NCBI GenBank assembly: GCA_028753945.1
Contig: JAPNXP010000013.1
Coordinates: forward strand, 4,837,501 to 4,901,500
DNA length: 64,000 nucleotides
Source of the DNA: Hexactinellida sp. DTS-2022
Taxonomy: Eukaryota > Porifera > Hexactinellida
Direction of reading: 5' to 3'
Positions 12,114 through 41,379 of this stretch are shown piece after piece. A program made the position numbers and the translations under genes. Positions within the stretch are counted from its first letter, which is position 1. Every line of letters starts with the position of its first letter. The notes beneath the pieces are model-generated. The model did not search any database, was not told the DNA's origin, and saw only the letters and a list, made by a program, of their open reading frames with translations.

Positions 12114-15100
12114 CTAATAAGAGTCGCGGTATATCATGCCGCCTTGCCCACCATTTGAACCTCTTCCTCTCCTTTGGTATCCGCCGCCCCCACGCGGTTT
12201 CCTCTGCTCACCTAAATTGCATTTATCCTTTCAAAATTTAATTGTTATCCTTTCAAAAAATAACGTTATCCTTTTCAAAAAGAATTCTATGAATTAACAA
12301 TTAATTTCGTGAATGGAATATGATATTTAATCAAATACAAAGGGAACACCTAATCATTCAATGCGGTAATTGCAGAGTTATAACATCATGAAACAACCAT
12401 TATGCGAAGCCGATTTCAGGAAATAGGATGTTAAACAGAAAGTTTATGTAAGTTAATTGTCGTTTTAAAAAGGATACAAATCATTAGTGAATAAATAAAC
12501 GCATAATAAGCACACAAGTTGGGCAATTTTACACGGCGAATAAATCATATTACGAGAGTATAACGGTAAATTAAAATAATAATGTAATAGTAGGAACATT
12601 GCACAATTAAAATTACAAACCTTGGTTCTCTCTTGCTTCATAATAATCTCCACCTAAATCCCTTTTGTAAATACCAGGTTGGGAATTATCAAAGCTGATG
12701 GAAGATTGAAAAGATGGATTGTCTTTGTAATTTGAATTATTAATGGTTCTGACTTGGTGAAGCTGTCCTTCCCGAGGAGGTTCATGTGAGAATTGACGAT
12801 TTGTCTGTTGTCGCTCCTGGGATTGAAAAGCAGTAGGCGGATTATTAAATGGTCTGTCCCAAGATTGAGACTGAGGTTTCTGAAAACCTTGTCTTCCACC
12901 TGTGAAATATTAATTAACAGAAGCACTAAACCTGCAATGGCACATCTCAGTAACTAATTTGATATTACGATTGCACTAGTATCAATTTCTAATTAAAAAC
13001 CAGGATAGTAATTATATTGAATGAGACAATTGAATTCAGAGACGCAAATGATAATATCATTCCTTATCCTGCATACCTCGATTGTCAGACTTTGGGAGCT
13101 CAACTCGCGGCTGGAAGGAGGGCATCTCCGGCGGGGGTCGCGTTTCCCAAGCCCTGCCCCCTCTGTCTGGGACCTGAAAGTGGATACGGATTTCGTTAAT
13201 AGATAATAGATATGATTAAGCAGTATTGGCAATTAATTATTAAGAAATAACTTAAATTAATAAGAAATAACAGACCGTCTATTTCAATACCAGGTTTTCT
13301 TACATATACAATACCTAGTAATACCCATAGACGACAGGGCTTTTGGTCTACAGAATTTATAGATGGTCTACATATAAGGATGCTCTTTAATTAATAGCAA
13401 CTCTGACTTTTCCCATTTTATATTTGTGAATAGAAGAGTGAGTGTTCTTCAACACAGAACTATTACTCGTCTTAGATTGATAAGCTAGATCTAAACAATA
13501 AATAAATTAAAATTATTAATAAATATTAAAATAAGCAAATAAATTCCCAACCTGTTCGTGCAGCCAGTAGTTGGTGCAGAGGTATAGAACAGTTTGGATG
13601 TACACCTTTATCGAATTCTTTTCGTATAACTTTCTCTACTTGTTCTGATTTCTCCTATACAATAATATAAGCATTACTACTCACATTAGTTAAGCTAGGC
13701 CACTAAAGTGAAATTAACAAAATTTCCTACTTTTTTCCAGGTAAAGGCTTGCAGTGTAACTTCCAGGCGCGTAAGCAGCAGTTGTCTCCGAGTCTTGAAT
13801 TCTTCTTCCAATTTGATATTCAGTCTTTCGATGTAGCTCTAAGACGAGTTCAAATAAGGAAATATAACAATGCAACTGTACAATTTTCATAATTATGTGT
13901 TTACGTCAAAGAAAAACTTTCTATGTATTAAATTCGGAATTCAGCTTACAGACAATGACATTGTACAACTAAAATAGTACGGGCATACCCATTGCTCGCG
14001 GTTGAGGAATCTGTTAATGAAAGGCGTACCAAAATAACTTGGTTTACCATCAACAAGTGGTTGCACCTGGGAAAAACAAAACGTAATGTGAATAAGGAAT
14101 CATATAGCTGTGGAAACCACGTTGGTGTAATCTAGGACATTGTGTAGTAAAAGGTTATTTTGGTTATTCAATGAGAATAACAGGTATAAAGTTTTATTTT
14201 AGTCATGCAATGTCTCGGGTTGGGAAGTATCTTTATAATAAGCTTTTTGTAGAATAATCAATTATCAATATTTAATTTACATCAAAATTCATATATTATG
14301 CTCATATTTTGTATTATTTTGTATTAGCTAAAGGTCAATCTTATGAATAGATAAACATAAACATAAATTTCCGGACAATTTTTCCCGGTTTTTTTTTTTT
14401 AGTAATAGCTGGAAAATATGGCATAATTATTACACAATCTCTGTCATACAAGTTTAATAAATTAATCCTGAAATTACATACGAAGAAATCAAGGTGTTTT
14501 TATCAGAAATTCACCAGTAAAATAATCAAGTATTAATATATTACACTATTACAAAAGCTATTGATTTACTAACAGAAATAAGGAACTATTCAAATATAAT
14601 CTCAGGTTTCTTTTCTTTGGTAAGCAAGTCTACAAGGAGTCTAATTATCGTAGTAATAACGGGATAAGTGTATTTCTAATCAACCGCAAGTCCATTAATG
14701 ATTCATCGGACAATAGAAATTGGTATCCTAAATTCATTTTTTCGCATTCAAGGGTACTTCAAAACAATTGGCAGAAATGAAAGGAAATCCTCAATTAGGA
14801 ACGAGACGCAAAAAGGCAAAGATACCCTTGTTCACAAGCGGAACATCTAATGACGAAAAAAGTATTCAAACTCCAGTAAATTCGAATTGGATACAACCAG
14901 AAGACTCCATAATTACTCAAATAAAATCTCATCGGGTAGCAACTAGAAGCAATAAAGCATTGCGTTTATCTGAAGACTGTGCTAATGGGTCAAATCCTAT
15001 AGCAGTGGCAAGCACCCCACTCAATTCACAGTCTATACGAGACAATAATGCTAGGAGAAGTATCAGTGAATTACCACTGTCATTCCACGAATGCGATTAT

Positions 15101-18100
15101 ACGCAAGGAATTTGCCCAGAAGACCTCAACCATACATTCAACACTACATTCCAAATTCCAGGACAGTCGTTAGATTTTGAGTTTCCATCTTTTATTCTTC
15201 GAGATGAAAACTTGGAAGAGAAATGTCCACTAGAGAGTAACAAACTGAAAAGTGTATTGCCTGACAAGTTTTGGCAAGTATTGAAGGAGGAGAGAGGGAT
15301 AACCGAATTGTACGATTGGCAACGAGACTGTCTTAGCCTAGCAAACAAGTATAAAGATAAGAATTTGATATATTCCTTGCCAACAAGTGGAGGTAAAACT
15401 CTGGTTGCAGAAATAATAATGCTAGAGACGCTCCTGGTCAGGAATCTAGACGCACTTCTGGTGCTACCGTACGTATCATTGGTGCAGGAGAAAGTCCGGG
15501 GCCTGACCACCCTGGCCTCAGAGCTGGGATTTAATCTGGAAGAGTACGCGGGGAGCAAGGGAGCCCTCCCGCCCCGAAAGCGACAGAGACGCTGTCTGTA
15601 CGTCTGCACGATAGAGAAAGCCAACTCCCTGACCAACTCACTGCAGGACGAGAAGCGCCTCGCGGAAATAGGACTCGCGGTTGTAGACGAGTTACACATG
15701 ATCGGAGAGGAAGGGGGGCGGGGGGCTTGTTTGGAGGCGTGTCTCGCTAAGATTATGTACTGCCAGCCGTCCATAAGGATCGTAGGCATGAGTGCGACTC
15801 TAGCCAACTTGCAAACTATCGCAAACTTTCTAAACGCACAGCTCTATGTGTCAGATTTCCGTCCAGTGACCCTACACGAGTACTTCAAGCTAGGACACAA
15901 TATATTCCGCGTGAGCGTCAAGAACGATAAGCCTACTCTACAGCTGGAGAGAGTGCTGCCTCAGATAGTTACCGCTCGCAGCCAAAGGAATGTGCAAGCA
16001 GATCCCGACAACATTACCGCTCTGGTGGCAGAGGTTGTACCCAACAAATCCTGTCTGATATTTTGTGCTAGCAAAGTTAACTGTCAGAACGTAGCGTCTC
16101 TCCTCACCACTCAACTTCCTAAAAACAACAGAAGCCACAAGAAAGAAGAAAAGATAAAAATGTTAGAAACGCTAGGATTAAATGCGAGCGGTGTTTGTCC
16201 AGTTCTTAGAAAGACAATTCCATACGGAATAGCCTATCACCACTCAGGACTCACATCGGAGGAGCGGAAAGTGATAGAAGAGGGATTCCTGTCAGGCGCC
16301 CTATGTGTGATTACCTGCACCAGTACGCTTGCGGCCGGGGTCAACCTGCCGGCCAGCCGAGTTATAATACGCAGTCCCTATACGGGGACCGTGTTCCTCA
16401 CGCGCACGCGCTACGTGCAGATGGTGGGGCGGGCGGGGCGGGCCGGGTTCGGAGAGGAGGGAGAGAGCTACGTCATCGGAGACAGCAAGGACAGACGGGG
16501 GATTATGGAACTAATGTCTGCGCCAATTGAGTCATGTGCCAGCACGCTACTGAGCGACGGTAGCACCCATCTGAGACAGCTGGTGCTGTCGGCTATAGGC
16601 CTAGGGATAGCCAACTCGGATAAACAGATTCAGACGCTTATGAGCAAAACCCTGCTCTCTAACTGTATGGGAACAGAAGAACTGGTCGGTCACATTAAGC
16701 AGTCGATTAGGGATCTCCATGGGAAGGAGTTAATATGGGCAGCCTACGCCCCGTCCAATACAGCGACTCCTACAACAGAAGAACAGCAGCTATTTGAGAT
16801 CCCACAGAGCTCTAATGCAGAGAGAGAAGTCTTGTACCAGGTGACGTATCTCGGGAAAGCAGCGTACAAATCCAATATAGATATCGACAGAGCCGCGGAG
16901 CAGCTGAGAGAGATGGAAGAGACTCAGAGCAATTTGATGCTTACGAACAAAATACATCTGCTGTATCTCGTAACCCCGCCTGACCTGGTTTTCAGCATTA
17001 AGCCCGACTGGAAGAACACATTCAATATGGTCACTATGGAGGGCGAAGAGGAACTGATTAGAGTGGCTCACCATTTGAAAGTGACTCCCTACTTTATCTC
17101 TAAGCTGATGACAGGCACCTCATTCGACAGCCCCGAGCAAGAGACCGCATACAGACGGTTCTACCTGTCTCTCTTGCTGCATAGAATAGTGCTAGGGGGA
17201 GGGGAGGAAGCCATTTGGAGAGTGGCAGACGAGTTTCAGTGCAGCAGAGGATTCATACAGAGTCTGCTCGCCTCCACAGCTGGTCGCTGTTCCTGTCTAA
17301 TTAGATTCTCGGAGCAGATCGAGCATCTCTGGCCCCTGTACCACCTGCTGCCTAATCTGCTGCAGAGAGTGGCGTACGCGGCTAGGCCAGAGCTGGTGCC
17401 GCTTATGGAGCTGAGTGGTGTGGGACAGGGACGGGCCAGACAACTCCTGGAGGCAGGGTTCTCAGGGGTTAAGGAAATAGCGCGAGCTGACCCGATGCTA
17501 CTCGTACAGGGCATGAAGCAGGTTAGTAGGAGCCAAGCGAGACAGATAGTAGCCTCAGCCAAACTAGTATTGCAAGAGAAGGCAGAAGCACTGAGAGAAG
17601 AGGCCGAAGAGCTCACGAGTTTTAGCGTTTGAACTTGTGTATTAATTGTGTTACCAGTTTGTTTGATATGAATAGAGAATGCATTGTTGATAGTTAGTGT
17701 GGGATAAAGTATTTGCAGAGAAATCTTTCGAGATACTACAATAGTAACAGAGTCAAATTAAATCGCGGTTGTGCTTTTCGAGAAGATTATATATGGAAAG
17801 TATTGATTCGTTTGCAGAGTACAAAAGTATTAAGAATTTGTTGGATAATTATCCCTTCTATTTACAGTCCATTAAGTATTTAATTAACTGAGATTGCGAG
17901 TTATGCTCAACTCAACATAGCAAGAAGATTAGATTAATTTCGAAATTCCGGTTCAGCCGTTATGAACGTAATCTTGGTTAATTAATTAATTTTACCAATG
18001 GCACACGCGGCGAATAATAACATAACAAATCGAAGTTATGACCAGCAAATCTATAATCATAATACAGTGTATTAGCCAATCATTAGAAACAATGCGAGAC

Positions 18101-35179: not shown

Positions 35180-38155
35180 TTACTTTTGAAAGAGCCCCTC
35201 GACTGGTCGGAATGCGTAATACAATTTCTGAAGCGCAGAACAGTAGAAATGCATCTTGTACTTATGGTCCATTTGGTAGCTCACCCATTTGCAAAGACCA
35301 GATTTGTAGGCGAGTCTTACAGGGCACATTATCTTGTGGCCTCTTTCGTGCGCTTTCTGGGTGTTCCCAACTGTAACTTCAGGGACAGCAAACACACTAC
35401 AAACAATCCCATTAACTACAATACAGCTGTTGAGAGTGAAAGGAGAGTAGACACCAACCTCTCTAACAGAGCTCACTTCCAGAACCTCGACACTCCGCAC
35501 CTCGGATCCACACACGGACCTGAGTCTCTCTCCCACGCGCACTCTCCCAGCTGGAACAGCTTCCCCTCTCCCCTGTCCCTGTCCCTGTCCCTGGTCCAGG
35601 AACACCAAATGGTTCTCACTAACCCTCAGTTCCCCCGCGGAGTGTCTGATGCACAGGAAGTCCGTCTCGGAGTCCGGGTCCAGGTGTCCCCAGAGGAACA
35701 GCGGAGACAGACACACCCTGCCCCGAGAATCCACAGACACAACTCTATCCGAGATACGCACGTCTCGCATGCGCACCACGCGACCTGACTCCAGCAGAAC
35801 TGTAGAGGTGCTGGGGAAACAAACGTTGTCACCCGTCTTAATCTCAGACTTAACACTTTCAGCAACATGCCTGCGTGTATGTATTCCTAAAAACATCAAT
35901 GGATTTACAAATCTTTCCTTCTTAATGGTTGCCGACCGATTGTGGAATTTCTCAAACGCACTGTGTAAAGCAACGTTCTTATCTCCGGGGATTATTAAAT
36001 CATGAAGAGGTTTAGGGAGTATTCTCAATGGAAGTATGGCTGGATTGTAATTGAGAGATTCCTCCCAGGAATTCCATTGTTTCTGAGAGATCTGTTTTAA
36101 AGTCGGTTGGTAATACCTCCGGTCCCCACCAAACCATTCCAAATCCGCTCGAAGCAAATCGAATAAAGGAGACATCACCTCTTCTTCTTCGACATCGTTA
36201 GTTGGCTCTATTAATTGGTCAACCGAAAAGCCATGTTTTATATTAATTATTAGATAAAAAAGCCGTTGCCTTAGAAGCTGGAAATAGTCGGGACTTCTCG
36301 CCCTCTCGAAACTGACTTCAAACTTGCCCTGAAGGTAACCCCCTATGCCAACCTTAGACACAATGCAATCCCCGTATTTGGTGAATAGGTGAGTAAATTT
36401 CGCTACATTTGCTGAATTGGATTCATCATAAATTTGAGGAATTTTATTTAATGCTTGAATAAAACTGTTTGTTAGAGTGGTGTTATTTATTTTTATAGTT
36501 AAGTTAGCTTTCTCGATTACAAAGGAGAGTTGTATTGTTTTACTTGAACTGTGTGAGGGGACAATATTAAATCCTGCTAGAGGTTGTACCTGAATTAATT
36601 CTACGTAATTATTCAAATCGAATTGTCTAAGTACATCTCCAGAATACTCAACAATGTTAGAGTAACATTGACAAAAATACTTTGTCTCATCGAGAGTTAA
36701 ACCCTCACAGTTTTCTGGGATTAAAAACCCGTACGGAGGCAATGGGATATCAAGAAGAAAATGCAATGACAGCTTTATCCTTCACTACTTGTTGTTTGGA
36801 TATATCGTAACCGTAGCCTAGATTGGTAGAAATGTTGTGTACAACTGGTTGTTTTATATTGAATTGACAGGTCAGTGCGCGAACCTCTATTTTATTAAGT
36901 TTGCATGGGTGAAGAATTATTTCTATTTCATCCAATGACTTTGATTCTAAATCTTCTATTTTCTTCAATCCACGTTTAACGAGTCTAAAAGTGAGAGGAT
37001 AAAGCTCGTCTTCCAGGTTGAGACCCTGATTCTCAGGGTCGTTGCCGTACTTTGTATATTCAACAATTCTTTCAGATACCTTTGTAGCTTCAAAGGGCGG
37101 TTTTATAACAGTAAGTTTGCGAAAGAAATATATCTTTCTTTCGCTGAAAAGTGCTTTGTCAGCAACAGAGTAAGGAGATATTACTTTAGGCGGAATAATT
37201 ATGGGAATTTCTTTCTGGGATTTAGCAAAGAATAACCGAACAGCTTCTATGCCAATCTCGTCTTGACTCTTCCTCATTATCTCAATGCAAGCGGTGAACA
37301 AATTCCTGGGTTGTTCCTCTCCGTTAAAAAGCTCAGAGAAATCTCCAACTCTATTCAAGTCGTAATCGTCAATTTCATTTTCAATATAAACGACTGGGAC
37401 ATCAAATTTGAAGAATCTCCTAGCGAGCAGTTTTATGTAATAAGCTTTGGATTTAAGCTTTGTTTCCCAAGTTTTTTTCGGGAGACTACACACGTGAGTA
37501 AGCACGATGACAACATTTGGATGTTTTCTGTCGATGAGGTGCAATCTCTTTTTCTGAATAATACTGAACATGCTGGCAACTCGCGATTCGGAACCTAACA
37601 GTCTCTCGTCATTCACATCAACCACAAGCATAACAATGTTAGGAAATACAGTGTAACGATGGTTGATGCCAAGCCAATTCAGTTGCTGCAAGCCTACTGC
37701 TGATGCTGTGAAATGAATTCTTCGATCAAAGCTAGGTTCGCTGCGTCCATATGCAGCCCCTGTGAATCCCCAAAGCCAGGCACGTCTACCCAGCTTAGCT
37801 CAAGGTTTTCCGCCTCCCAATGATCGCTTGTCAATGAAGTTATGTGCTCGATGACATCTCCAGTAGCTGAGTGCTTGCAAGAGGTAGCCATTAGATCCCT
37901 CGCTCCGTTGAACAAATGCTTGAGTGTGGAAGTTTTCCCAGAACCCGAGAGGCCATATAGGAATATAATAGCACGGTTAGCCGGTCTCTGAGCTAGCATA
38001 CTTTTCTCAACCATTCCAAGTGCTTTATGTCGTCTCTGAGATAATGACTTTATTGGGTTGCTTTCTAGCACGTAGTAGTCACGTGTAACTGTTGTTGGTG
38101 CTGGAATTTCTATCTCAATTTCATCCCGTATTTGGATAGGATTCTTCTCAGCCAT
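35180..38155 (-). CDS. GTPase-MACPF-Hog fusion, copy 2 (frame broken twice)
   Basis: Three overlapping open segments cover the gene. 38155-37694 has the P-loop LYGLSGSGKTSTL and the G3 motif DVPGFGDS. 37691-36750 has VVDVNDERLLG, the G4-like VIVLTHV and the MACPF start LGYGYDIS. 36766-35180 has the rest of MACPF (FTKYGDCIVSKVGIGG, then ADLEWFGGDRRYY and WNSWEESLNYNPAI) and a Hedgehog-type Hint domain from CFPSTSTVLLESGR. The Hint has SENH for the TxxH motif, ends VVNGIVCSVFAV, and is followed by a C-terminal HFYC segment. A -1 shift at about 37694 and a +1 shift at about 36750-36766 are needed. No GT-AG intron explains them. Either a decaying gene, recoding or assembly error. MACPF domains form membrane pores; Hog domains self-cleave. 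Confidence 0.7.
35381..35821 (-). repeat. Near-identical Hint module, copy in gene 2
   Basis: Aligned base by base with 38603-39037 it shows three substitutions and one 6-base (GTCCCT) length difference. Two substitutions are silent; one is Val/Ala. On the coding strand it starts at the first base of the predicted catalytic Cys codon (35821) and ends with a Pro codon (35381-35383). Two counted 60-base samples inside it have 60-63% GC, while a sample of this gene's upstream coding sequence (36421-36480) has 25%. Confidence 0.95.
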
Positions 38156-38380
38156 TCTATACTCAGTAAGAGTAATTGTAAATTAATTTAAAGTTTATAG
38201 TTACTAGGAAATCGGAGTTGTTTACTAATTCTTTTTGCCAAAAGAAAACTTAGTGTAAACAAGATAAAGAGAAATAATAAAAAACATTTTTAAAACCATT
38301 CAAAATATGAAACAGAATTCCCTAAAAAGATAGATAAAAACAATTCTAGCATTTATACAAATTCAATTTAATTAAAAATT

Positions 38381-41379
38381 CTATAATCTTTCAGTCATTG
38401 TTTTGCCAAAAAATAACTTCTCAATTGGTTTCATTCCAAAATAACCTTTCTGTAACAAAGTACAGTATAAGTGCATTTTGTGTGTGTGGTTCATGGGAAA
38501 GCTAATTACGTCAGAGAGACCAGCTTTGTAGCTGTATCTGAGGGGGGCGAAGAGGGCGTGACCAATTCTGTGTACTTGGCTTATGTCCCGTGCTATCCCA
38601 GGAGGGACAGCAAACACACTACAAACAATCCCATTAACTACAATACAGCTGTTGAGAGTGAAAGGAGAGTAGGCACCAACCTCTCTAACAGAGCTCACCT
38701 CCAGAACCTCGACACTCCGCACCTCGGATCCACACACGGACCTGAGTCTCTCTCCCACGCGCACTCTCCCAGCTGGAACAGCTTCCCCTCTCCCCTGTCC
38801 CTGTCCCTGGTCCAGGAACACCAAATGGTTCTCACTAACCCTCAGTTCCCCCGCGGAGTGTCTGATGCACAGGAAGTCCGTCTCGGAGTCCGGGTCCAGG
38901 TGTCCCCAGAGGAACAGCGGAGACAGACACACTCTGCCCCGAGAATCCACAGACACAACTCTATCCGAGATACGCACGTCTCGCATGCGCACCACGCGAC
39001 CTGACTCCAGCAGAACTGTAGAGGTGCTGGGGAAACAGGAATCGCTCTTAATCTCACTTTTTGCTTGGTGTGAAGCTTCGTTTCTTGTATTGGGGAGAGA
39101 ATAAGATGTTTTACTCTTCCTAACAACAACTCTGTTCGTTAGATATTCATAAGCTTTCTGCACTGGCATGGCTCGCGGATGGTTGTGTGAATGTAAAATG
39201 GAATGGAGAGTGACTGGTATAAAGCTGTGTTGGAGAATTATAGGATTCAATTTGAGAGACTGTGTCCAGGAGTTCCAGCTACTGCTGGTTAGCTTTCCGA
39301 GAGATGACGTATGATGGCGCGCGTCACCCCCCCTCCAGGTGAGATCAGCTGTGAGCAGCTGATTGTAAATCTGTTCTTCTTCGTCTAAGTTATCACCAGG
39401 ATGAAAAGTCTCGGAGAATTTAGCTCCGTTAATAGTATTGCCGATGTGAGTAATGACCAGTTTACGGATGGTAGTATAGTAGTCTTCTCGCAGTGCATTA
39501 GTCCTCTCTACCGATAGCACCCCTTCGATACAGCCTCCGAGCGTGGCTTGTGTGATAGCCCAATAACCGTAGTTCGTAAAGAACGCAGAAAAAGCATGGA
39601 CACATGACTCATTTCCCTCTTGAAATGTTTCCGGGATATTCGAGGCCTCTTTCACCAAATCTGAGGAGAGCGGGTAGCTGTCACTCGACGCGAGACTAAC
39701 GCGATAAGTAGTCTGGTCGATGCGAAATGATATTTTACAATCCTTTTTAGGTACAGAGTTCGGATCGATAATATTATAGCCGCTAATCAGAGGGAATTTT
39801 GCAAATTTTGAGTATTTATCAAGTCCAACGTTTATGAGTATTTCTCTTGCAAAATCAGAGATATGTTTAACTCCGCGACAAGTCGCCTCTGTATTCACAT
39901 AAGCAAACAAGCTGGCACCTGTCGGCAATATAAAGTTGTACGGAGGTTGCTCATATACCTGTGACGTATCAATAACAGGTTGTAAGATTGTATTATCGAA
40001 TATATTGAAGCCGCAGCCTAGTACAGGCGCTATGTACTCCGGTTTGGGCTGGACAGGATTAAACAGCTGACATATGATCTGTTTCTCTAAGTCAGATAGT
40101 TTGTATGGAATCAGAATACTCTCTATCTCTGGAAGAGTGAGAGATCTTATTTTATCCACCTCTGTGAGATTGTTTTTCTGTAAAATGAACTTTAATGGAT
40201 ACAACTCTTGTTCATCTTTTTCACTCTTGATATAAGCGTTTATTTTCAAGTCAACATTTGTTGTTTTCAAAGCCTCGAAAGGTGTTGAGACTTTCGCTAA
40301 CCAGTAACTGGCGTTTTCAGATAGCTCCTCTTCACATTTTTCAGTACACAATTTCCCTTTCACACAATTATCCAGAACTAAAGGTATTTCCATAGATCGC
40401 TCGTAATACAGTCTCATTGCTTCTATCCCAACTTCGTCCTGATTAAGCTGCATTATCTCAATGCACTTTTTGAATAGGTTAAGCGGCTGTCTCTCTCCAT
40501 TATGTAGCACTGTCCATTCGCCTTCTCTAGTCAGGTCCCAGCCTGCATGGTCGTTCTCAATGTACACAACCGGGGCGAGAATCTTTAGGTATCGCCTTCC
40601 TAACAGCTGGAGACAGTAGGCTTTGGATTCAAGTTTGTTCTGCCAGTTGCCTTTCGCAATTCCGCAGACATGCGTCATCACAAACACTACATTCGGACGC
40701 TTAACATCAACAATCCGCAATCTCTTCTTCCCGAGAGTTCGCAGCATTCTACCAACCTCCGTATCGTAGCCGAATAATCGCTCGTCATTAGCGTCTATGA
40801 CTATTAGCACTATGTTGGGATAGAATATTGCGTATGTGTAGAATAGACAACGTATTTCGCGAAATTCTGCAGTCCCAATTGCTGGTGCTGGGCTATGAAC
40901 TGCTCAATATTCGCGAGGTTTAACGCGTCTTGGTATCTCCCGCCGGAATCATTAAACCCTGGAGCATCAACGAAGCTAATTTCCAAGTTATCAGCGCACC
41001 AATACTCGCTGGTCATAGAGCCGACATACTCAACTACGTCACGCGTGCCGGATTTGTTATGGGATATGTCAACTGAGGTTTTGTTGTTGAATAGATGGCA
41101 AAGTGTGGAGGATTTTCCAGCCCCCGAGAGCCCGTATAGGAAGAAAACAGCGCGATTCGAAGAGCGCTGGGCGCATAAACTTTTTCCAACCATTTCTAGG
41201 GCTTTATGCGAAATTTCGCGAGACATTTTAAACGCTTCCATCGGTGTTTTTGGTAGCGACAAGTTACCGGTATGCGGATGTGTTGGGGTATGCAAAACTG
41301 GTATTAAACTCGATCGCAATGACACTCTAAACTCCTTTACTGGCGTTCTATTAATCTCATCTTGATTTTGTTCAGCCAT
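38381..41379 (-). CDS. GTPase-MACPF-Hog fusion, copy 1 (frame broken once)
   Basis: Segment 41379-40810 (189 residues) holds a P-loop, YGLSGAGKSSTL (83-93), and G3 VDAPGFND (137-144). The second segment, open from above 40810 down to 38381, continues with PNIVLIVIDANDERLFG, the G4-like VFVMTHVCG, a linker, a MACPF domain (about 260-545, signature NYGYWAITQATLGG at 413-426, then WRGGDARHH and WNSWTQSLKLNPII) and a Hog domain. The Hog domain has catalytic Cys592, SENH (His662), VVNGIVCSVFAV and the tail HRIGHALFAPLRYSYKAG...HLYC that matches the sterol-recognition region of Hedgehog. The two segments overlap in different frames and need a -1 shift at about 40812-40880. Role inferred: a GTPase-regulated pore former with self-cleaving C-terminus. 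No signal peptide is seen. Confidence 0.75.
38603..39037 (-). repeat. Near-identical Hint module, copy in gene 1
   Basis: 435 bases covering Cys592 to Pro736 exactly on codon boundaries; the partner is 35381-35821. The first mismatch lies immediately outside the block on each side. The flanking coding sequences align only as diverged proteins. Confidence 0.95.

Follow-up and report, generated by a model that had tools for sequence, protein, structure and literature searches.

Can a GTPase, a membrane-attack fold, and a self-cleaving Hedgehog-type domain belong to one protein, and if so, what would such a protein do? The question is raised by two tandem genes (gene 1 and gene 2) at positions 35180 to 41379, on the minus strand, of the window, that is, the whole 64,000-nucleotide stretch of DNA analyzed here, which is part of the 112.4-Mb, 18-contig genome of the glass sponge Hexactinellida sp. 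DTS-2022. A first-pass annotation, made from the sequence by itself, had read each gene as a P-loop GTPase followed by a MACPF domain and a Hedgehog-type Hint (Hog) domain with a short tail. That domain order is correct. All of the motifs quoted were located in both genes (Table 1), with GLSGSGKTST (G1), DVPGF (G3), and the GGD...WNSW...NP pattern also present in gene 2, and in the profile searches that the annotation had proposed, both genes lay above the Pfam cut-offs for Hint (115.6 bits in gene 1 and 114.9 in gene 2; cut-off, 29.7) and MACPF (49.2 and 44.9 bits; cut-off, 21.5), scores that are far beyond chance. The GTPase profile MMR_HSR1 gave 24.0 bits in gene 1 and 19.2 bits in gene 2, the latter being below the cut-off of 21.9. 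The architecture therefore stood; what had been overlooked was the breaks in both reading frames, a histidine (His46) in place of a catalytic aspartate, the loss of Cys143, and the homogenization of the Hint segments. On balance, we favor the view that these genes belong to a glass-sponge family of probably cytosolic, membrane-acting proteins, in which a GTPase switch of the Toc34/AIG1 type and a MACPF domain are followed by a Hog domain that would cleave itself and attach a sterol as an anchor.

A conserved GTPase-MACPF-Hog family

The family has at least 18 loci in its own genome. Contig C11 holds 13 of them, C1 and C5 hold two each (those on C5 being the window pair), and C18 holds one. Thirteen of the 18 are single open frames; the frame is split in the other five, namely, the window pair, C11_f, C1_1, and the C11 locus at 14.29 Mb. 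A Hint that begins with Cys1 is present in 15 of them, and a genome search, in which the best candidates were scored, found 17 Hint places, namely, these 15 and two degenerate first Hints. Intact relatives of approximately 960 to 1250 amino acids (aa) occur in this genome, in the glass sponge Oopsacas minuta, and in ENA assemblies; for example, P0025 (86% identical to gene 1), P0026 (77%), and P0027 (O. minuta LOD99_16130; 65%) are single proteins of 999 to 1010 aa. Protein database searches, in each of which scoring was confined to the nearly 8000 candidates with the most words in common, returned 23, 12, and 48 matches, or 81 proteins once two repeats were removed. Among the candidates scored, the named matches were all from O. 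minuta save one, a springtail GTPase without MACPF (P0082). The O. minuta entries LOD99_14043, LOD99_14044, LOD99_14045, and LOD99_14047 carry neighboring numbers and lie on contigs of equal length, which indicates a tandem cluster in that species too. Because a conserved, mostly intact family shows the same domain order, the GTPase-MACPF-Hog protein is real and can be put down neither to a fusion by chance nor to three genes read as one. The MACPF profile was found by Pfam in 30 of 39 family rows; in the same 39 rows Pfam recognized no further membrane-binding domain, and neither these rows nor the window pieces had a match to the Hedgehog signaling domain.

No PDB match was obtained by sequence for the GTPase piece of gene 1; the GTPase of an intact paralogue has a predicted fold that is clearly that of Toc34. 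Structure prediction, which the first-pass annotation had also suggested, gave for the MACPF domain of the modeled paralogue a fold that Foldseek matched to C9 (1.4e-10) and perforin (1.6e-10). With a second model, Foldseek ranked MACPF structures first, with Astrotactin-2 among the matches, and helix stretches were seen by eye in the predictions at the positions expected of the two MACPF membrane-hairpin clusters. The fold and the YG...GG signature are shared with perforin, C9, MPEG1, and the bacterial proteins GNIP1Aa and Mpf2Ba1; unlike those proteins, the members of this family show no sign of a signal peptide, and their MACPF domain is fused behind a GTPase.

Three individual loci were noted. 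L016 (C1:16155460-16158265) closely resembles the intact C1 paralogue L017, of which it is a copy, with its frame divided in two near the point where the MACPF signature begins. The split C11 member at 14.29 Mb, G000:C11:14294762-14297666, also lies in two frames, with approximately 150 bases between its matches and a weak match over the degenerate-Hint region; the genome Hint search, with the best candidates scored, gave no match there. At L018 (C8:2132647-2133171), a MACPF frame lacks any Hint match and has a hydrophobic stretch at its N terminus; it looks like a classical secreted MPEG1-type perforin, and this usual secreted kind seems to occur alongside the GTPase-MACPF-Hog family.

Hog active site and probable C-terminal lipid anchoring

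Catalytic residues were tabulated for 96 proteins (81 from the databases and 15 from this genome), 67 of which have a Hint. Both Cys1 and His72 are present in all 67, including the two window genes. Position 46, a catalytic aspartate in fly Hedgehog, is a histidine in each of the 67 Cys1-bearing Hints, a finding that rests on alignment and not on structure-match ranks. Among solved structures, gene 1 and a paralogue were best matched by an engineered D46H Hedgehog (6TYY); it was not the top match everywhere, since Sonic hedgehog came first for P0025 and 1AT0 was level with 6TYY in Foldseek for the second model. According to the sections cited of PMC9163320, Asp46 (Asp303) is the general base in fly Hedgehog, and the D46H swap kept structure and activity and raised activity with coprostanol and epicoprostanol. 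Because this swap keeps fly Hedgehog active, the Hogs of this family look competent, with a natural version of the engineered base, and we infer from these residues that they carry out cleavage and sterol transfer. The Hint matches Hedgehog Hog (1AT0 and the D46H mutant 6TYY); unlike Hedgehog, the proteins described here have no signaling domain, have His46 throughout, have lost Cys143, and show no signal-peptide sign. An intein acting by protein splicing was considered and rejected, as there is no C-terminal extein behind the Hint, only a tail of 66 to 73 residues resembling the sterol recognition region (SRR) and then a stop codon. In P0025 the alignment of this tail with Sonic hedgehog reaches the beginning of the SRR.

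The Hint-less members of the family provide the strongest indication of what the Hog domain may do. A CaaX box (where X is L, F, or I) ends 16 of the 29 Hint-less database homologues versus 0 of the 52 Hint-bearing ones (Fisher 2e-9); the split is profile based, these endings were chosen after the tails had been seen, and the Fisher value counts for less than it appears to, since it is overstated by the relatedness of the homologues. Any cysteine at position -4 is found in 17 of 29, including one fragment, versus 3 of 52. Both Hint-less paralogues in this genome end in a CaaX box (...PSPCRIF and ...TSMCVIL), and in O. minuta LOD99_14043 ends in CSIL and LOD99_14044 in CFIF. Within a single cluster, GTPase-MACPF proteins end in either a prenyl signal or a Hog domain. 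Since many of the Hint-less sisters carry CaaX boxes and the Hint-bearing proteins carry none, it is most likely that the Hog domain serves as a C-terminal lipid anchor. The first-pass annotation had offered lipid anchoring as one of two outcomes of autoprocessing, and it is supported by the catalytic residues, by the Hedgehog-like tail, and, above all, by the CaaX boxes of the Hint-less paralogues, which are themselves predicted from this C-terminal signal to be prenylated. CaaX boxes with L/F/I-type ends mark proteins for geranylgeranylation in the cytosol. The family is probably cytosolic, both because of this mark and because a crude hydropathy scan agrees: a hydrophobic 19-mer lies within the first 25 residues in none of 51 Met-started proteins longer than 900 aa and elsewhere in 17 of the 51.

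Several observations weigh against a sterol-anchored, membrane-acting family. Cys143, which in Hedgehog reportedly takes part in a branched intermediate (according to the title of a 2025 paper), is present in 0 of 66 scorable Hints (V in 61, I in 3, and A in 2), and its loss therefore counts against an unchanged Hedgehog mechanism. The residue before Cys1 is not always glycine, being serine in gene 1 and valine in gene 2, and an SRR-like pattern, itself drawn from these tails, fits only 46 of the 67 (and 0 of 1340 shuffles). The three Hint-bearing proteins with a cysteine at -4 are P0005, P0007, and P0042, which have other endings, and 13 of the 29 Hint-less homologues lack a CaaX box; P0048, P0049, P0051, and P0065 are not obviously fragments, whereas many of the remainder are, and the springtail GTPase and P0028, a Hint gene that has been cut, also belong to this remainder. 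To our knowledge, Hedgehog autoprocessing belongs to the secretory pathway and not to the cytosol. In addition, the first MACPF hairpin region was predicted with low confidence (predicted local distance difference test [pLDDT] score of <50 for residues 494-521), gene 1 and gene 2 are both frame-broken, and in the sections cited of PMC3723955 the four AIG1-Hint genes of a coral are not among its three immune-induced genes.

The loss of Cys143, the replacement of Asp46, and the variable residue before Cys1 would also suit a Hog domain that acts as a release switch, in which water or some other nucleophile would break the chain at Cys1 and so free the GTPase-MACPF part from an inhibitory C-terminal domain. 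That Hint folds can be structural parts is suggested by a second, degenerate Hint, which is kept in at least 14 of the 67 Hint-bearing members; neither Cys1 nor His46 is present in any of the 14 degenerate first Hints aligned (two have no residue at position 46), and the one modeled is predicted to have a Hint-like fold. However, many of the Hint-less paralogues end in a CaaX box rather than in nothing, the SRR-like tail has been kept (in 46 of 67 by the pattern), and D46H Hedgehog still transfers sterol. We consider a release switch unlikely and prefer lipid anchoring.

Homogenized Hog segments and broken reading frames

The Hint DNA of gene 1 and gene 2 is 97.96% identical over 441 columns, from the Cys1 codon to the last Hint codon, and the adjoining flanks gave no blastn match to each other. 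At the protein level, the two genes are 99.3% identical in the Hint, 27% identical in the MACPF domain plus linker, and 38 to 45% identical in the tail; gene 1 and P0025 are 90% identical in the Hint, 82% in the MACPF domain plus linker, and 93% in the tail. Because the window Hints are so alike while the rest has diverged, and because P0025 is closer to gene 1 outside the Hint, the comparison indicates that Hint sequence was transferred from one window gene to the other after the split from the lineage of P0025. A search of the genome for solo copies of the gene 1 Hint DNA, with common words skipped and the best candidates scored, returned gene 1, gene 2, and two short matches on C1.

On C11, the N-terminal parts are 30 to 85% identical (median, 35%) and the Hogs are 95 to 98% identical in 21 pairs of seven members; overall, the Hog cassettes of paralogues, the window pair included, are 95 to 99% identical in protein. 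The seven are drawn from nine C11 members, since C11_a was compared separately and C11_f, which aligns with C11_g over approximately 1.3 kb, was left out. Ungapped DNA identity in these pairs, a measure that lowers the upstream values, rises abruptly at the Cys1 codon, from 0.36 to 0.98; the identical run above this codon is at most 2 bases long in 19 of the 21 pairs. Gapped blastn alignments start at most 12 bases from Cys1 in most C11 pairs; the exceptional ones begin at -30 to -44 and at -588. The 3' edge of the shared segment varies, falling before the end of the Hint (C11_a), at its end (C5), or beyond it, through the tail (others). In quick trees, which have some long branches and cover 31 of 38 Hint-bearing rows (left out were the fragments C5 gene 1, C5 gene 2, C11_f, and C1_1, together with P0004, P0016, and P0023), the genes of this genome are scattered among others in the N-terminal tree (10 label changes), and its seven C11 genes form one group in the Hog tree (support, 98; 4 label changes, with 0 of 500 shuffles as low). 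The plain reading is that gene conversion has homogenized the Hogs and would have stopped where upstream homology ends. The G+C content of the window Hint segments is 0.57, compared to 0.38 to 0.43 in the upstream parts of these genes, a difference that repeated GC-biased conversion would produce. A glutamine run of approximately 7 to 11 residues varies among otherwise near-identical C11 Hogs (L010, L011, and L013), which suggests repeat slippage between conversion events.

A fuller proposal is that a GTP-gated MACPF pore former receives a sterol from the Hog domain, perhaps an unusual sterol that the natural His46 lets in, and that gene conversion ending at the codon for self-cleavage keeps the module uniform among diverged paralogues; this proposal is tentative, and we would put it somewhat short of an even chance. 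It can also be envisioned that the Hog is a selfish, intein-like cassette spreading among host genes, since a sharp 5' edge at the Cys1 codon is found in two separate clusters, the Hint differs from upstream sequence in G+C content, and degenerate Hints stand beside intact ones. Nevertheless, all 17 Hint places found in the genome among the best candidates scored lie within one family, Pfam named no endonuclease in the 39 family rows, the 3' edge is variable, as expected of ordinary gene conversion, and the 5' edge is where upstream homology ends. We therefore hold a selfish cassette to be very improbable and gene conversion to be the better account.

Both window genes have damaged frames. The open frames of gene 1 (41388-40810 and 40903-38381) imply one break, and those of gene 2 (38182-37694, 37799-36750, and 36781-35180) imply two. 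A search by eye at the frame changes revealed no GT-AG intron that would keep both the frame and the conserved core. The break in gene 1 falls at a spot that is read through by seven of its eight closest relatives, the eighth (P0031) beginning behind it; because of this, and because no GT-AG pair fits, an intron was rejected, and the break is recent frame damage or an assembly error. Programmed frameshifting in gene 1 was dropped, its relatives being intact. For gene 2, which has no close relative (the best-scoring matches of its three pieces are 46%, 41%, and 46% identical), we cannot tell an intron from damage. Differences between the two genes at codon positions 3 and 2, respectively, are 0.685 and 0.288 and 0.648 and 0.332 for the GTPase-side pieces and 0.698 and 0.39 for the MACPF domain plus linker, a pattern that fits the expectation for proteins under selection; these values were used in place of the ratio of nonsynonymous to synonymous changes (dN/dS), since dS was undefined for two pieces.

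Being frame-broken, gene 1 and gene 2 may themselves be inactive. They might be decaying pseudogenes, the architecture being idle at this locus, a situation that would be compatible with lipid anchoring in the family at large. The one break in gene 1, the two in gene 2, and the lack of a close relative of the latter point in this direction; the read-through of the gene 1 break by seven of eight relatives, the long frames that are still open (840, 533, and 349 aa), the two in-frame, 99.3% identical Hints, and the possibility of assembly indels point away from it. Decay is thus possible but somewhat doubtful.

Proposed mode of action, precedents, and feature coordinates

We postulate that the precursor is made and folds in the cytosol, where the Hog domain would cut itself off at Cys1, with His46 replacing Asp46 as the general base, and the new C terminus of the GTPase-MACPF part would be joined to a sterol. 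This C-terminal anchor would do the job of the CaaX box in the Hint-less paralogues and would hold the protein on a sterol-rich membrane. GTP-driven self-assembly, which is known for GIMAP and Toc proteins and for guanylate-binding proteins (GBPs), could then gather the MACPF domains on a target membrane and so pierce or reshape it. The role would most plausibly be cell-autonomous defense, like that of lipidated GBPs but with the pore domain built in; pore formation, control by GTP, and the defensive role are all guesses. GBPs are large immune GTPases with a C-terminal lipid attached through CaaX, in a position where the proteins studied here have either CaaX or Hog; they differ in belonging to a GTPase class other than the Toc/AIG1 fold and in having a helical stalk where the MACPF domain sits here.

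Parts of this architecture have precedents. In the sections cited, AIG1-type GTPases with a C-terminal Hint are reported from the coral Acropora (four sequences; PMC3723955) and the snail Biomphalaria (PMC7053062), and CARD-AIG1-HINT proteins are reported from a lancelet (PMC12373286). As in the present family, an AIG1-type GTPase is joined to a C-terminal Hedgehog-type Hint, in families that are linked to immunity; unlike here, no MACPF domain in the same protein is mentioned in those sections. The glass sponge Aphrocallistes vastus has an expansion of AIG1 single-exon genes (PMC10282587) that resembles the present one in consisting of single-exon, tandem, AIG1-type GTPase genes; in the main text of that paper, MACPF, perforin, and hedgehog are unmentioned, and "hint" occurs three times, those viewed being software hints. 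Likewise, the paper on the O. minuta genome does not mention hedgehog, hedgling, MACPF, perforin, or GTPase in its main text. Among the top-ranked matches in the open-licence literature, no report of the GTPase-MACPF-Hint triple architecture was found. The earlier statement that no protein with this domain order had been described thus holds, within those matches, for the combination with MACPF; it has to be qualified in that AIG1-Hint fusions are published and O. minuta members stand in databases under automatic names. What is new is the MACPF domain inside, the natural His46, and the CaaX-ended sisters.

Some MACPF proteins are not lytic, Astrotactin-2 being an example, and it may be that the present proteins shape or tether membranes instead, for example, those of the trabecular syncytium or the plugged junctions peculiar to glass sponges. 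This idea fits the presence of Astrotactin-2 among the Foldseek matches and the fact that glass sponges, represented by O. minuta, are the only named hosts of the triple architecture among the candidates scored. However, AIG1-Hint fusions also occur in nonsyncytial animals, where the families are read as immune, and a tandem expansion with N-terminal parts as divergent as these (30 to 85% identity) is more like that of defense genes. We regard a nonlytic role as rather unlikely and retain defense as the more plausible function.

Hedgehog proteins are described, in the sections cited of PMC7242414, as singular in their covalent joining to cholesterol. From the family reported here, it seems that sterylation may have a role within cells as well, where it would anchor proteins that attack membranes; the paralogues of one tandem cluster, which carry either Hog or CaaX, provide a natural test case. 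With His46, the residue engineered into fly Hedgehog by chemists, in 67 of 67, the active-type Hogs may offer protein-lipidation domains that are ready-made and sterol promiscuous. A single chain holding a pore domain, a GTPase, and a self-lipidating tail would give cell-autonomous defense a new layout, in animals with largely syncytial tissue.

Table 1. Features of the two GTPase-MACPF-Hog genes (window positions)
Feature	Position	Strand	Remarks
Gene 1 (GTPase-MACPF-Hog)	38381..41379	-	Start Met 41379; two open frames; intact relatives P0025, P0026, P0027
Gene 1 Toc34/AIG1-like GTPase domain	40400..41150	-	Limits approximate
Gene 1 G1, GLSGAGKSST	41133-41104	-	
Gene 1 G3, DAPGF	40968-40954	-	
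Gene 1 G4-like, MTHV	40681-40667	-	
Gene 1 G5-like, YIEN	40570-40553	-	
Gene 1 MACPF domain	39182..39712	-	Pfam PF01823, E 9.8e-13; perforin-1 by sequence, E 0.0013
Gene 1 MACPF signature, YGYWAITQATLGG	39571-39533	-	
Gene 1 GGD...WNSW...NP pattern	39331-39242	-	
Gene 1 Hint, Cys1 codon (CFPST from 39037) to ...VFAVP	38603..39037	-	PF01079, E 3.2e-33
Gene 1 His46 codon (Asp46/Asp303 in Drosophila Hedgehog)	38900..38902	-	Alignment to 1AT0 and 6TYY
Gene 1 C-terminal tail resembling SRR (HxxGHxLFAPLR)	38384..38602	-	P0025, 93% identical here, aligns with Sonic hedgehog
Gene 2 (GTPase-MACPF-Hog)	35180..38155	-	Start Met 38155; three open frames
Gene 2 MACPF domain	35948..36547	-	Pfam PF01823, E 2e-11
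Gene 2 MACPF signature, YGDCIVSKVGIGG	36376-36338	-	
Gene 2 Hint, CFPST from 35821 to ...VFAVP	35381..35821	-	Hint, E 5e-33
Gene 2 His46 codon	35684..35686	-	Residue table and alignment
Gene 2 SRR-like tail	35183..35380	-	38-45% identical to gene 1 tail

Adjoining gene 1 in the window are a gene for a histone-fold protein (PF00808; 42251-42733, plus strand) and a histone deacetylase piece (PF00850; 43413-43805, minus strand). Elsewhere in the window, positions 14732-17629 (plus strand) encode a 966-aa helicase in a single frame, with a POLQ-type helical domain (PF21099) and no polymerase match in that frame.

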